A stretch of 64,000 bases of DNA from Myxococcales bacterium (lineage in GTDB: Bacteria; Myxococcota_A; Polyangia; Polyangiales; Houyiibacteriaceae), in the NCBI GenBank assembly GCA_024640845.1, contig JAHEEE010000002.1, positions 1-64,000 of the forward strand. Reading direction: 5' to 3'. Of this stretch, positions 26,804-33,292 are shown piece after piece. Below the pieces are notes generated by a model, which worked only from the letters and a program-made list of their open reading frames with translations, searched no databases and was not told where the DNA came from. A program made the position numbers and the translations under genes. Position 1 is the first letter of the stretch, and every line of letters starts with the position of its first letter.

Positions 26804-27451
26804 GTGAGCGACAAACGCGACCAACTCTCCCCCAGGAGAAAACCGAGCCAGGAACGCTCGCGCGATCGGGTGGAGCGCATCCTCGACGCGACGGCTTCGC
26901 TTCTCAGCGAGATGGCCGTGGACAAGATCACCACCGCGGCCATCGCCGCGAAAGCTGGCGTCCCCATTGGCTCCGTCTACCAGTACTTCCCCAATAAGCT
27001 CGCCGTCCTTGCGCAACTCGCGCGGCGCGTGATGGCGGAGGTGGACATGAAGACTGCGAGTCTAATCGCTGAGGATTTCGGGGTTTTGCCGTGGGATCAG
27101 GCGATCGACCGCGCCATTGACGCCACGATGCAGGGGTACTCGGAGCAACCGGGCTACGCGCAATTGCTGCTCAGCATTCGACCGACCCCGGAGTTCGGAG
27201 CCATCACGGACGAGTCGAACGAGCGGGTGGCCGCGCTGCTCGCGCTTCACCCCGCGTTGCAGGCGCTGATTCCCAAAGAGCGTATCGAGCTCGTCAGTCG
27301 TTCCGCGATCCGCGCCGTGAACTCGCTACAGGACTGGGCGCTGTCCGTGGACGACCCCGAACAAGCAAATGAGATCATCGGCGAGATGAAGACGCTGCTG
27401 AAGGGTTATCTGGCAGTCTACCTCGGTCAGAACGGGCTCAAACAGCCATAA
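26804..27451 (+). CDS. TetR-family transcriptional regulator
   Basis: A 215-aa regulator. The N-terminal helix-turn-helix (about residues 26-68) reads RILDATASLLSEM then ITTAAIAAKAGVPIGSVYQY, a standard TetR recognition helix ending in YQYF. The C-terminal all-helical domain would bind an unknown ligand. The start is GTG at 26804. It is divergent from ppk1 and lies 115 bases upstream of the beta-helix/cytochrome operon, so either may be a target. The intergenic region at 27452-27566 contains an AAAC-CCGA-GTTT partial palindrome (about 27512-27523) that could be an operator; this is speculative. Confidence 0.9.
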   Translation: MSDKRDQLSPRRKPSQERSRDRVERILDATASLLSEMAVDKITTAAIAAKAGVPIGSVYQYFPNKLAVLAQLARRVMAEVDMKTASLIAEDFGVLPWDQAIDRAIDATMQGYSEQPGYAQLLLSIRPTPEFGAITDESNERVAALLALHPALQALIPKERIELVSRSAIRAVNSLQDWALSVDDPEQANEIIGEMKTLLKGYLAVYLGQNGLKQP

Positions 27452-27566: not shown

Positions 27567-29126
27567 ATGAATTTCAAAGTAGTTATCAGCGCGCTTTTCG
27601 CGTGCGCAATCCTCGTAGTGGGCTGTAGCAGCGACGACAGCAGTGGCACTGCCGGCAGCGGCGGCTCCGCAGGCGGCGGGGGCACGATCCCACCAGGCGC
27701 CGGCGGCATAGGTGGCGGCACCCCGGTGGCGATCAACTGCGACACCGACTTGCCGGACCCCAGCACCTATGTCGTCGACGAGGTCTTCGACAACGTCCCG
27801 GCAACGTCGAGCGAAGACTGCACGGACCCAATCTTTATGCCGGGCGCGGATGCAGCCAACCGTTTGAATACGCGTCTCGAGAACGCCGACGTCGGCGACG
27901 TCGTCTGCTTGGCAGAAGGCCTGTATGAGATGGATGAGACGATCAACATCTCGCTGGTCGAGGGGTTGACGGTCAAGGGCATCGGCGCTTCGCCGGATGA
28001 CACCGAGCTCCTTTTCGGCGGACCGGGCACCGGCATCGGTATCTTCGTTCAGAAGGACGACGTCGCGATCGAGAACCTCCATGTCCGGAATACCGGCGCG
28101 AACGGCATCGAACAGGACGGCACCAATGGTTCTGTCTTCCGCAAGGTGCACGTGAGCTGGGACGACTTCTGCGACACCGCAACGCCGCCTGCCAACTGCG
28201 GCAACGCCTGTACCGAAGACGCCGAGTGCGGAGATCCGCTGCTCGCCTGCGAGAACGACGCCTGCGTGGGCGACCAGGGCAAGAACGGAGCCTACGGCAT
28301 CTACCCGACCAACTGCGAGAACACGACCGTCGAGTTCAGCCAGTCGACGGGCGCATCGGACGCAGGCATCTACGTCGGCAAGTGCGGTTGGCTCGATGAT
28401 TCGACCACAGGTGGCGTCGTTCGGTACAACATCGCCGCGAACAACGTTGCCGGTCTCGAGGTCGAGAACTGCCTCGACGTCGTCGCGCACGACAACCTCG
28501 TGTTCGGCAACACGGGCGGCCTGATGCCCCTTCAGCAGCCGATCTCCGAGGAACGACCGGCAAATACCGGCGTGTTGATGGAGAACAACAAGGTGTACTG
28601 CAACAATGGGAAGAACTTCGCCGAGACCGGTGTCGTCCAGATCATTCCGGTAGGTACCGGCCTTCTCAACCTTGGTGGCCAGGGCGTCGAAATCCGAAAC
28701 AACGATGTTCAGGGCAACGATACGCTGGGGCTCGCGATCGTGAGCAGCGCATTCACCTGCGATGCAGCCGGTGCGGACTGCCCCCCCTACTCGTACGAGT
28801 ACAACCCGTACGCCGAAGACATCTACGCACACGACAACTACTTCTTGAACAATGGCACCAACGCCCAACTGACCGGTGAGTTTGGAATCATCTTCGATCT
28901 CTTGGACTACGGAACGCCCGAAAACCCGACCCCAAACGTCTTGTGGGGCGGAAGCGTCGCGCCAGATGTCACAGACCCCGGGATCTGCTTGGGCGCCGAC
29001 TACGACGGCACCTATATCGACCTCACCAACGGGCAGTGTACGGAGCTTGGAAACATTCCTTTGTACGGGGCTTGTATTTTCGAGAACAACACGACCAGCA
29101 CCGAGGGACGCCTCTGCGACCTCTAA
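27567..29126 (+). CDS. Parallel beta-helix lipoprotein (TIGR03805/SO2931-like)
   Basis: A 519-aa lipoprotein: signal peptide with Cys20 (VVGC), then a Gly/Ser-rich linker (residues 25-52) and a right-handed parallel beta-helix. Blocks such as IENLHVRNTGANGIEQDG, FRKVHVSWD, NGAYGIYP and ASDAGIYVG are those I recall for the TIGR03805 beta-helix family, which is found next to SO2930-like diheme cytochromes. A Cys-rich insertion with six cysteines (about residues 200-235) splits the helix between HVSWDD and NGAYGIYP. A very strong ribosome site (ggaggaggag) precedes the ATG. It is the first gene of a three-gene operon with two haem proteins. Substrate or ligand is unknown. Confidence 0.88.
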   Translation: MNFKVVISALFACAILVVGCSSDDSSGTAGSGGSAGGGGTIPPGAGGIGGGTPVAINCDTDLPDPSTYVVDEVFDNVPATSSEDCTDPIFMPGADAANRLNTRLENADVGDVVCLAEGLYEMDETINISLVEGLTVKGIGASPDDTELLFGGPGTGIGIFVQKDDVAIENLHVRNTGANGIEQDGTNGSVFRKVHVSWDDFCDTATPPANCGNACTEDAECGDPLLACENDACVGDQGKNGAYGIYPTNCENTTVEFSQSTGASDAGIYVGKCGWLDDSTTGGVVRYNIAANNVAGLEVENCLDVVAHDNLVFGNTGGLMPLQQPISEERPANTGVLMENNKVYCNNGKNFAETGVVQIIPVGTGLLNLGGQGVEIRNNDVQGNDTLGLAIVSSAFTCDAAGADCPPYSYEYNPYAEDIYAHDNYFLNNGTNAQLTGEFGIIFDLLDYGTPENPTPNVLWGGSVAPDVTDPGICLGADYDGTYIDLTNGQCTELGNIPLYGACIFENNTTSTEGRLCDL

Positions 29127-29168
29127 TCGGCGCCTGAGCTCCACTCACGGTGCACTGCGGACAAGACA

Positions 29169-30560
29169 ATGAAGCGACCTCTTAACTTAGTTCTCCTCTC
29201 CTTCCTCCTCCTCACCGCCGCTGCTTGCAGCGACAGCTCCCCCGAAACCGGGGGAGCGGGCGGCACCGCCGGCATCGGCGGTGTCGGCGGTATCGGCGGT
29301 GCCGGCGGTGCCGGCGGTATCGGCGGTGAAGCCGGCATGGGCGGCCAAGCCGGAACGGGCGGCGAAGGCGGAATGGGTGGCACGGCACCCAAGGGCACCT
29401 GCCACTCGAGTGTGCCGGATCGGCTTTCCGAATGGAGCCTCTTTGCGGACATCCGCAATCAGGTTCCGGCGGACGGCGTCATCCCGTTCGATGTTACCTC
29501 GCCACTTTTCACCGACGACGCGCTCAAGTTTCGCTTCGTCACCCTGCGGGAAGGTGGAACCCTCACCTACTCCAACGACACGACACGTTGGGAGGGCCCG
29601 GTCGGCACGATTTACGCCAAGACCTTCGCCTACCCACCCAACATGCTCGACCCCGAAACCGACGGTCTCAGTCAGCTGATCGAAACACGTCTACTCGTCC
29701 ACGTCGCCGCCGAAGACGACCGGCTCGGCTGCAGCGGCGCCGAGTCCTGCTGGCAGGTGCACGTCTACGTCTACGAGGACGACATGGAAGATGCCATCTG
29801 CCAATCCGGTGGCGCCACAGTGTCGGTCGAGTACACCGATCCGCTCACGGAGCTGCAGGAGCTGGTTCCCGACTACGGCGTTCCTTCGAACGGCGCATGC
29901 CGTCGGTGCCATGGTACGGAGACACGCTCGCTCGGACCGTCGACTGGCATGCTCAATCGGGGCAATGACTACGGCGGCAAGATGGTCGACAACCAAATCG
30001 ACCAGCTCTTCGAGCTTGGGATGCTTGCGCCGGAGCCCGGGCCCGAGCTCAATCGGGTCAGGTACGCCAACCCGAAGGGCCTGACCGAGTCCTGTCAGAG
30101 TCCGGAGTGTTACCACGAAGCCGCTCGATCCTGGTTCGACACCAACTGCTCCCACTGCCATGCACCGGATGGCGAAGCGGCGGGAACCGGCATCTACCTC
30201 GACTACGCGAGTATGGACCCGACCGACCCAACCGACGAAGACTTCAAGAAGTGGGGTGTGTGTAAGGACCCGACTTCGGCAGGCGGCGTCAAGAACTGCA
30301 ACAACGCAATTCACGACATCGTCCCTGGCGAGCCCGACCAATCGATCACGCTCTGCCGCATCGATTCGGTCACGCCAGGCGAAATGATGGCCCCACTCGG
30401 ACGGAGCTTGGTCGACGACTCCGGCTACGAGGTGATCCGCGGGTGGATCGAGATCCTCCCCGTGCTCTTCCCAGACATCCCCACGTGCTCCGACACCGGC
30501 TCTGGCGGCACGGGCGGGATGGGCGGTAACGGCGGCGCAGGCGGTGCCGCCGGGTTCTGA
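29169..30560 (+). CDS. SO2930-family diheme cytochrome c lipoprotein
   Basis: A 463-aa lipoprotein (LTAAAC, Cys20) followed by a long Gly-rich linker (28-72). The family domain includes LSEWSLFADI, VIPFDVTSPLFTDDALKFRF and GTIYAKTFAYP, then two c-type haem motifs, C244RRCH and C327SHCH. This matches the HNE_0200/SO2930 (TIGR03806) group. It presumably shuttles electrons between the beta-helix partner's substrate and the peroxidase or respiratory chain; this is inference. Unusually, the C terminus ends in a second Gly-rich tail of about 20 residues. It lies 42 bases after the beta-helix gene and two bases before the start of the next. Confidence 0.9.
   Translation: MKRPLNLVLLSFLLLTAAACSDSSPETGGAGGTAGIGGVGGIGGAGGAGGIGGEAGMGGQAGTGGEGGMGGTAPKGTCHSSVPDRLSEWSLFADIRNQVPADGVIPFDVTSPLFTDDALKFRFVTLREGGTLTYSNDTTRWEGPVGTIYAKTFAYPPNMLDPETDGLSQLIETRLLVHVAAEDDRLGCSGAESCWQVHVYVYEDDMEDAICQSGGATVSVEYTDPLTELQELVPDYGVPSNGACRRCHGTETRSLGPSTGMLNRGNDYGGKMVDNQIDQLFELGMLAPEPGPELNRVRYANPKGLTESCQSPECYHEAARSWFDTNCSHCHAPDGEAAGTGIYLDYASMDPTDPTDEDFKKWGVCKDPTSAGGVKNCNNAIHDIVPGEPDQSITLCRIDSVTPGEMMAPLGRSLVDDSGYEVIRGWIEILPVLFPDIPTCSDTGSGGTGGMGGNGGAGGAAGF
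29250..29384 (+). repeat. Tandem GGC-GGT coding repeat (Gly-rich linker)
   Basis: About 135 bases of 9-base-period coding repeat (GGC-GGT plus a variable codon such as ATC, GTC or GCC) encode residues 28-72 of the diheme cytochrome. Such tracts are prone to expansion and contraction and serve as flexible spacers after the lipidated Cys. Confidence 0.8.
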
Positions 30561-30561
30561 G

Positions 30562-31626
30562 ATGACTAGGGCGCTCGGGGCCGCGGTGTTGGCCGCCGCG
30601 TTCGTCACCGCTTGCGGCGAGCCGGCGGGCACGACCCCCGCGAACGACAGTCCGACGCCTTGGCCTGTCACGGCGTTCCCGGAGCTGCCGGAGATCATGT
30701 CCGACGTGCCGGAGGCTCGGATCGAGCTCGGCCACATGTTGTTCTTCGATCCGATTCTGTCGGTCGATCGGGAAACGGCATGCGTCACTTGCCACAGCGA
30801 ACAGTGGGGCATGAGCGATGCGCTGAGGCGGGCCGTAGGTCACGGCGCAGGCCTGCTCGCTGGGCCAGGCCGGCGTGGCCCAAACGAGCTCCGGCGCAAC
30901 TCCTCATCACTTTACAACCTCGCGTTCCGCGAGACCCTTCTCTTGGATGGGCGGGCCACGACCCTCGAGGAGCAAGCTCTCTTCCCACTCGTCGCGGACG
31001 ACGAAATGGGCGTCGACCCCGCGACGGTCGTCAATGAGCTTGCTGCAATCCCCGAGTACGTCGCGCTATTCGAAGAGGCGTTCCCGAACGACCCGAGTGT
31101 GAGCATCCAAAACCTGGCAGCAGCCCTGGCCGCCTATCAGCGAACGTTCATTTCCGATCGCTCGACCTACGACGCCTATGTCAGCGGGCGAACTGGCCTC
31201 ATGACCGACGAACAGATCGAAGGCATGTTCCGGTTCGCGGAGATGGGATGCGATGGCTGCCACACGCCTCCGCTCTTCGAGTCCGAGACGTTCGCGAACC
31301 GAAACGTCCCAGACGCCGAGGGGGTCGTCGACTATGGACTGCAGGAACACACCGGCCTCGAGGAAGACCGCGGCAAGTTCCGCGCGGTGACCCTTCGCAA
31401 TCTGATGTCGACGTCGCCCTACTTCCACAACGGTGCGATGACTCGGATGGATGACGCGATTCGGCACGAGCTCGGGCAGAGCGGGATGCCGTACGACGAA
31501 GAGGACGTACGCCTCATCATGACCTTCATCGACAAGACGCTGCGTGACGAGACGCGCGAAGCGATTCGCCCCGTCTCCGTCCCGAGCGGCCTCACGATCC
31601 CGATCGACCCGCCGGGCAGCCGTTAG
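30562..31626 (+). CDS. MbnH/MauG-like diheme cytochrome c peroxidase family lipoprotein
   Basis: A 354-aa lipoprotein (VTAC, Cys18) of the bacterial diheme peroxidase superfamily. Haem motifs are C74VTCH and C230DGCH. The core DGRATTLEEQA contains Q138 and the downstream catalytic-type Glu is E148; both align by spacing with Q104 and E114 of Pseudomonas CcpA. The Trp that precedes DGRA in CcpA (W94) and MauG is Leu128 here. The C-terminal block GLEEDRGKFRAVTLRN then SPYFHNGAM resembles MbnH. It may act as peroxidase or as a protein-modifying oxidase. ATG at 30562 follows the previous stop by one base. Confidence 0.88.
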   Translation: MTRALGAAVLAAAFVTACGEPAGTTPANDSPTPWPVTAFPELPEIMSDVPEARIELGHMLFFDPILSVDRETACVTCHSEQWGMSDALRRAVGHGAGLLAGPGRRGPNELRRNSSSLYNLAFRETLLLDGRATTLEEQALFPLVADDEMGVDPATVVNELAAIPEYVALFEEAFPNDPSVSIQNLAAALAAYQRTFISDRSTYDAYVSGRTGLMTDEQIEGMFRFAEMGCDGCHTPPLFESETFANRNVPDAEGVVDYGLQEHTGLEEDRGKFRAVTLRNLMSTSPYFHNGAMTRMDDAIRHELGQSGMPYDEEDVRLIMTFIDKTLRDETREAIRPVSVPSGLTIPIDPPGSR

Positions 31627-31627
31627 A

Positions 31628-33292
<1,665 letters not shown>

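Follow-up and report, generated by a model that had tools for sequence, protein, structure and literature searches.

A Glu-type diheme peroxidase encoded beside beta-helix and cytochrome lipoproteins in Myxococcota: a candidate H2O2-dependent redox module

What might a beta-helix protein, a diheme cytochrome and a diheme peroxidase, encoded as three consecutive lipoproteins, do together? We examined this question for a 64,000-nucleotide stretch of DNA (here termed the window), which lies on contig C89 of a draft genome (4.1 Mb) whose nearest relatives are Myxococcota MAGs. A preliminary description of the window had proposed that the three genes form a system-like unit, in which the beta-helix protein (BH) could be the substrate of the peroxidase (PER), with the cytochrome (CYT) encoded between them. 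Based on the analysis presented here, the trio appears to be a hitherto undescribed redox module that depends on H2O2, and not the known MbnH/MbnP system.

The three genes and their families

The three open reading frames were confirmed to lie in a row on the forward strand, separated by gaps of 42 bases (BH to CYT) and 1 base (CYT to PER). The features of the locus are as follows.

26804..27451, + strand: TetR-family regulator (PF00440/PF17918), 115 bases upstream of BH
27567..29126, + strand: BH, beta-helix lipoprotein of the TIGR03805 family, 519 aa, ATG start
29169..30560, + strand: CYT, diheme c-type cytochrome lipoprotein of the SO2930/TIGR03806 family (sub-cut-off), 463 aa, ATG start
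30562..31626, + strand: PER, diheme CCP_MauG peroxidase lipoprotein of the Glu clade, 354 aa, ATG start
31628..33292, - strand: AidB-like acyl-CoA dehydrogenase (Pfam), convergent with PER at a 1-base gap

A lipoprotein-type signal and cysteine were read from the sequence at the start of each product (VVGC in BH, AAAC in CYT, and VTAC in PER), and two CxxCH motifs were found in both CYT (residues 244-248 and 327-331) and PER (residues 74-78 and 230-234). The AidB-like gene is the boundary of the unit. On the other side, the position of the TetR regulator was found to be kept across the genus (synteny of loci L094-L097 and L155-L164) and not in the Polyangiaceae loci. The operon neighborhood as a whole is syntenic within the genus, and the Polyangiaceae loci keep the trio alone; therefore, the trio is the unit. 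Scans of the locus for promoters and terminators returned nothing above chance.

The beta-helix assignment of the first gene was upheld, with BH scoring 201.7 bits against TIGR03805 (curated cut-off 141.5). An AlphaFold2 model of BH (pLDDT 86) displayed a right-handed parallel beta-helix, with AlgE epimerases, RbmB, NosD and polygalacturonases as fold neighbors (for AlgE 2pyg, VIA Z 31.7 and an rmsd of 2.6 over 297 residues). BH failed the NosD model TIGR04247 (25 bits versus a cut-off of 300) although the fold is common to both, and its profile matches to the PDB were weak. This modeled fold would not settle the function of BH, as sharing an AlgE-type fold does not show an activity; a polysaccharide lyase or epimerase role, suggested by the fold only, was thus not assigned. 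Two further observations were made on this family: (i) a Cys-rich insert (window positions 28166-28290) directly follows W198 of BH, with a similar insert in L097 and none in most relatives; and (ii) a distant second TIGR03805 homologue, below the cut-off, is encoded in a 762-residue frame elsewhere in the genome (G000:C106:51824-52510), near no peroxidase match.

The second gene had been described as an SO2930-like diheme cytochrome. This held in that CYT covered the whole TIGR03806 model (positions 2-313 of 314) with both CxxCH motifs in place; the score of 228.6 bits, however, fell short of the curated cut-off of 313.3. An invariant methionine, M407, was also detected. The CYT gene adjoins the TIGR03805 gene, as claimed for these two families, and BH and CYT were found fused in single open reading frames of several genomes. 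CYT-type domains were fused to GSDH/PQQ-type dehydrogenase domains in all five of the long open reading frames checked, and given these fusions CYT is most plausibly an electron-transfer module that can partner either a dehydrogenase or BH. Fusions of this kind to the TIGR03806 domain were recorded in Myxococcota at L179, L181, L182, L183, and L184, which suggests that many matches to the 'SO2930 family' may be dehydrogenase-cytochrome fusions. The CYT model had no PDB match at E <= 0.001, the weak first match being a cytochrome c'-beta. A phmmer match of CYT residues 151-232 to baculovirus AC109 (E 0.002) was reproduced neither by the family profile nor in the Foldseek rows shown and is probably due to chance.

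For the third gene, labeled MbnH/MauG-like, the assignment stood at the level of the superfamily only. PER passed PF03150 (CCP_MauG) with 157.4 bits against a gathering score of 25.6, and failed the cut-offs of both the MbnH model TIGR04039 (154.7 versus 362.85 bits) and the MauG model TIGR03791 (139.4 versus 443.85 bits).

Distribution of the trio and a second peroxidase beside BH

Co-occurrence of the three families was examined in a phylum sample of 284 genomes, with cut-offs of E <= 1e-25 for TIGR03805 and E <= 1e-45 for PER. TIGR03806 was matched in 171 genomes, TIGR03805 in 83, and PER in 13; eleven of the 13 PER genomes were of the operon type, and all eleven encode PER within one locus together with BH and CYT. 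Narrow search patterns, which may miss distant relatives, were run against about 85,000 species genomes and yielded 25 PER loci. BH and CYT were beside PER in 22 of these, with two contig ends and one paralogue making up the others, and this arrangement is far above chance. The expectation that the families co-occur across genomes was thus borne out, with PER accompanying the BH-CYT pair nearly wherever its clade occurs, and the trio is conserved and system-like in that these 22 loci keep it despite changes in order: this genus, like some others, has BH-CYT-PER, the Polyangiaceae have BH-PER-CYT, and CYT is inverted in one case. The hosts are a group of myxobacteria, mostly uncultured; those informatively named are Myxococcota or related delta-proteobacterial MAGs, with one cultured Minicystis rosea, whose locus (L169) has the order BH-PER-CYT, and within this analysis Glu-type PER was confined to Myxococcota. 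Most BH-CYT pairs are found without a neighboring PER: the set contains 39 BHs that lack it, one of which lies at a contig end. BH-CYT thus does not generally require PER.

Glu-type peroxidases were also observed in other settings. The genome under study encodes a second one, 65% identical, away from BH and CYT and beside a TMEM175-type potassium channel gene (L110, G000:C131 2494-3642). A solitary gene lies beside an acyl-CoA dehydrogenase, away from BH, at L098 (G169:C100 2125-5090), and a related MAG has a tandem pair of them downstream of CYT (L154, 1589-3711).

The PER-bearing BHs were found to form one clade (SH-aLRT 94), including one member at a contig end that may or may not be accompanied by PER. 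The most parsimonious history is a single acquisition in an ancestor of these Myxococcota, followed by retention and shuffling of gene order; the PER-BH association may therefore have a single origin and owe its persistence to inheritance, while the order shuffles argue for selection.

A more distant peroxidase was detected next to BH in the absence of CYT at four loci (L105, L106, L112, and L113). In three of the four, the BH linked to this peroxidase has a C-terminal domain resembling plastocyanin/amicyanin (a cupredoxin). The fusions are listed below.

L105, 7794-9305: BH-cupredoxin fusion beside a Tyr-type peroxidase
L106, 6271-7788: BH-cupredoxin fusion beside a Tyr-type peroxidase
L112, 5057-6595: BH-cupredoxin fusion beside a Tyr-type peroxidase

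All four of these peroxidases have Tyr at the sixth-ligand position, and they group weakly with MbnH (SH-aLRT 89). As two peroxidase clades both pair with BH, BH is the partner common to both. Gene content thus connects BH with enzymes of the MauG superfamily from two distinct clades, and each of the two settings also supplies a one-electron carrier, a cytochrome in one and a cupredoxin in the other. That the second clade pairs with BH where CYT is missing indirectly supports a connection of PER with BH in particular.

Ligand position and placement of the peroxidase

The Glu clade was named for the residue at alignment column 303, the sixth-ligand position of the second heme. Of its 29 aligned sequences one is truncated at this column, and among the 28 scorable members Glu was found in 27 and His in one (L173). 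The same column holds Met in 4 of 4 CCPs and Tyr in two MbnH and in the four BH-linked Tyr-type peroxidases; a control with further genomes from this order gave Tyr in 19 of 19 MbnH and Met in 9 of 9 CCPs. Judged by position only, Glu303 would be a ligand of the heme iron. The Met ligand at the second heme is a CCP feature, and what Met and Trp do in these enzymes has been described (PMC10094543). Tyr ligation is a feature of MauG and BthA that is tied to bis-Fe(IV) chemistry, and the inter-heme Trp is dispensable in BthA (PMC6405878). A literature search that had most subscription journals outside its reach returned no description of a Glu-ligated MauG relative and, in keeping with the claim that their joint function is undescribed, no paper on the function of TIGR03805/TIGR03806.

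The catalytic residues of PER are Q138 and E148, and the clade keeps this Gln in 28 of 29 members, the Glu in 29 of 29, and both heme motifs. At the inter-heme Trp position the window PER has Leu128, with Trp in 23 of the 29 clade members. Trp82, within the motif CHSExWG, is invariant in the Glu clade and absent in the other peroxidases, while a GHG loop is present in the window PER with a His that is not conserved in the clade. In a quick tree search (no bootstrap), the 29 Glu-clade sequences fell on one side of a branch with an SH-aLRT of 99; the corresponding values were 99 for MbnH and 97 for the Tyr-type peroxidases. The Glu clade was placed with these two groups, and not with the CCPs, at a weak SH-aLRT of 83.

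PER was compared with the known systems on this basis. Bacterial CCPs (1nml, 2c1u, and 6fu3) were its nearest solved structures by sequence (1nml, E 1.2e-44) and share the Q138/E148 site and, with the window PER, the GHG loop; in contrast to them, PER lacks the Met ligand, has Leu for the inter-heme Trp, has a loop His that is unconserved in its clade, and falls outside the CCPs in the tree. MauG matched at E about 1e-16. The mau cluster (methylamine dehydrogenase and amicyanin) likewise combines a partner, a one-electron carrier and a MauG-superfamily enzyme, the carrier being a cytochrome in the trio and an amicyanin-like domain in the Tyr-type loci; however, no methylamine dehydrogenase gene was recognised in the PER loci, and the MauG Tyr is replaced by Glu in PER. 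BthA, a diheme enzyme of Burkholderia (PMC6405878), is MauG-like and comparable to the window PER in its inter-heme Trp being absent, but it keeps a Tyr463 ligand and the similarity is weak (E 1e-10). BH and CYT correspond to the TIGR03805/TIGR03806 pair (HNE_0200/SO2930), which is fused in some relatives; unlike most such pairs, this one has a PER, and the CYT of this genus is below the TIGR03806 cut-off.

MbnH (TIGR04039, PDB 6e1c; E 1.8e-22 to PER) is also a diheme CCP_MauG protein with the catalytic Gln/Glu and an adjacent partner gene, MbnP (TIGR04052). PER differs in having Glu in place of Tyr, in its sub-cut-off score, in a partner that is BH-CYT and not MbnP, and in its separate clade, such that its identification as an MbnH was rejected. 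The genome was found to have one MbnP (272 bits), a gene whose presence elsewhere had been raised by the preliminary description. It adjoins a true MbnH, which scored 492.6 bits and, against 6e1c, 383 bits, and the two form a complete pair on a short contig (locus L006, G000:C85 1869-3032 and 3072-3914). Among 38 genomes from the order, 20 had an MbnH over the cut-off, and MbnP was found in the same 20. The BH-CYT-PER operon occurs without MbnP in two genomes, G081 and G013, the latter of the same genus and about 100% complete. With MbnP beside its own MbnH, and missing from two genomes that have the operon, PER is ruled out as the enzyme that acts on MbnP.

Candidate reaction and competing readings

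The reading that we favor, at a probability of about 0.4, is an H2O2-driven oxidation of a BH-carrier partner by PER as a Glu-type relative of MauG. The operon would be an envelope redox module in which CYT serves BH as its own one-electron carrier. PER represents a new clade of diheme peroxidases on the MauG/MbnH side of the CCP_MauG superfamily. PER is proposed to react with H2O2 at its first (P-type) heme by means of Q138 and E148. The second heme probably has a carboxylate (E303), or else no ligand from the protein, where CCPs have Met and MauG has Tyr. Oxidising equivalents may then pass to the BH-CYT partner, most likely BH, a direction and target that we infer in favoring MauG-like partner oxidation over plain H2O2 scavenging.

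If BH were the substrate, a Trp or Tyr modified by PER should track PER, and residue tracking was used as a test on this basis. Comparison of 24 PER-linked and 39 PER-lacking BHs revealed no Trp or Tyr specific to the presence of PER. W198 was set aside as a target, being invariant in CYT-linked BHs with (24/24) and without (39/39) PER and absent from the BHs linked to Tyr-type peroxidases. W460 was enriched with PER (22/24 and 4/4, versus 15/39 without), as was N179 (21/24 and 3/3 versus 5/38); the enrichment is partial and represents two independent contrasts only, at which significance is unreachable by the sign test, and neither was retained as a PER-tracking mark. The Cys motif 'VG[KQS]C', a strong mark in the first 35 BH sequences, stood at 15/24 versus 12/39 in the larger set and was also discarded. 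The BH residues invariant in the alignment include Y243, Y246, D265, Y269, and E300, and the Tyr residues invariant across the family are possible targets of PER. A more elaborate form of partner oxidation, which we consider doubtful, is a second kind of mau-like system, in which MauG relatives of the Glu and of the Tyr type would each mature a beta-helix protein into a quinoprotein-like enzyme that feeds CYT or the fused cupredoxin, with W460, Y243, Y246, and Y269 as candidate sites and Glu ligation as a new means of stabilising a high-valent diheme state.

The closest rival to partner oxidation is that PER serves as a terminal acceptor, with electrons passing from a BH substrate to CYT (in the other clade, to the fused cupredoxin), on to PER and finally to H2O2, which is reduced to water as in a CCP with a dedicated donor. 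This is a distinct possibility, if a lesser one. The usual donors of CCPs are c-type cytochromes and cupredoxins, and the carriers encoded beside PER are of this kind; the closeness in sequence to solved CCPs, the conserved catalytic Gln and Glu, and the fusion of CYT domains to dehydrogenases are also consistent with it. Counter to this flow of electrons, the Met of the CCP electron-entry heme is replaced by Glu in 27 of 28 members and the inter-heme Trp by Leu in the window PER, and the clade branches with MbnH and the Tyr-type peroxidases and not with CCPs, at a support of 83.

It is unlikely that PER instead acts on a small molecule such as a lipid, in the manner of the PA2077/PA2078 fatty-acid diheme peroxidases or RoxA, with BH binding the substrate or a matrix. 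Fatty-acid-type diheme oxygenases do belong to the CCP_MauG superfamily (PMC4496055), and the operon is flanked in the genus by TetR and acyl-CoA dehydrogenase genes, with one PER paralogue beside another acyl-CoA dehydrogenase; however, these lipid-gene flanks are confined to the genus, and PER is short (354 aa) and had no RoxA/RoxC-type match in NCBIfam. Quite unlikely is the reading of the trio as co-regulated envelope genes that are inherited together and share no reaction: although the single clade of PER-bearing BHs means few independent associations, the trio stays together while order and orientation change, and BH is found fused to CYT or to a cupredoxin, the cupredoxin fusions having a second peroxidase clade as neighbor. 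Finally, that PER is an MbnH acting on the MbnP encoded elsewhere in this genome is already contradicted by the MbnH neighboring that MbnP, by operon-bearing genomes that lack MbnP, and by the ligand residue and phylogeny of PER, and is very improbable.

The sixth ligand of the second heme, Met or Tyr, separates H2O2-scavenging from protein-modifying diheme peroxidases, and the Glu clade, nearly always found with the same two partners, is a natural third state in which to test this ligand rule. The trio also ties the TIGR03805/TIGR03806 pair, of no described function, to H2O2 chemistry and one-electron carriers, and it is carried by a cultured host, Minicystis rosea DSM 24000.
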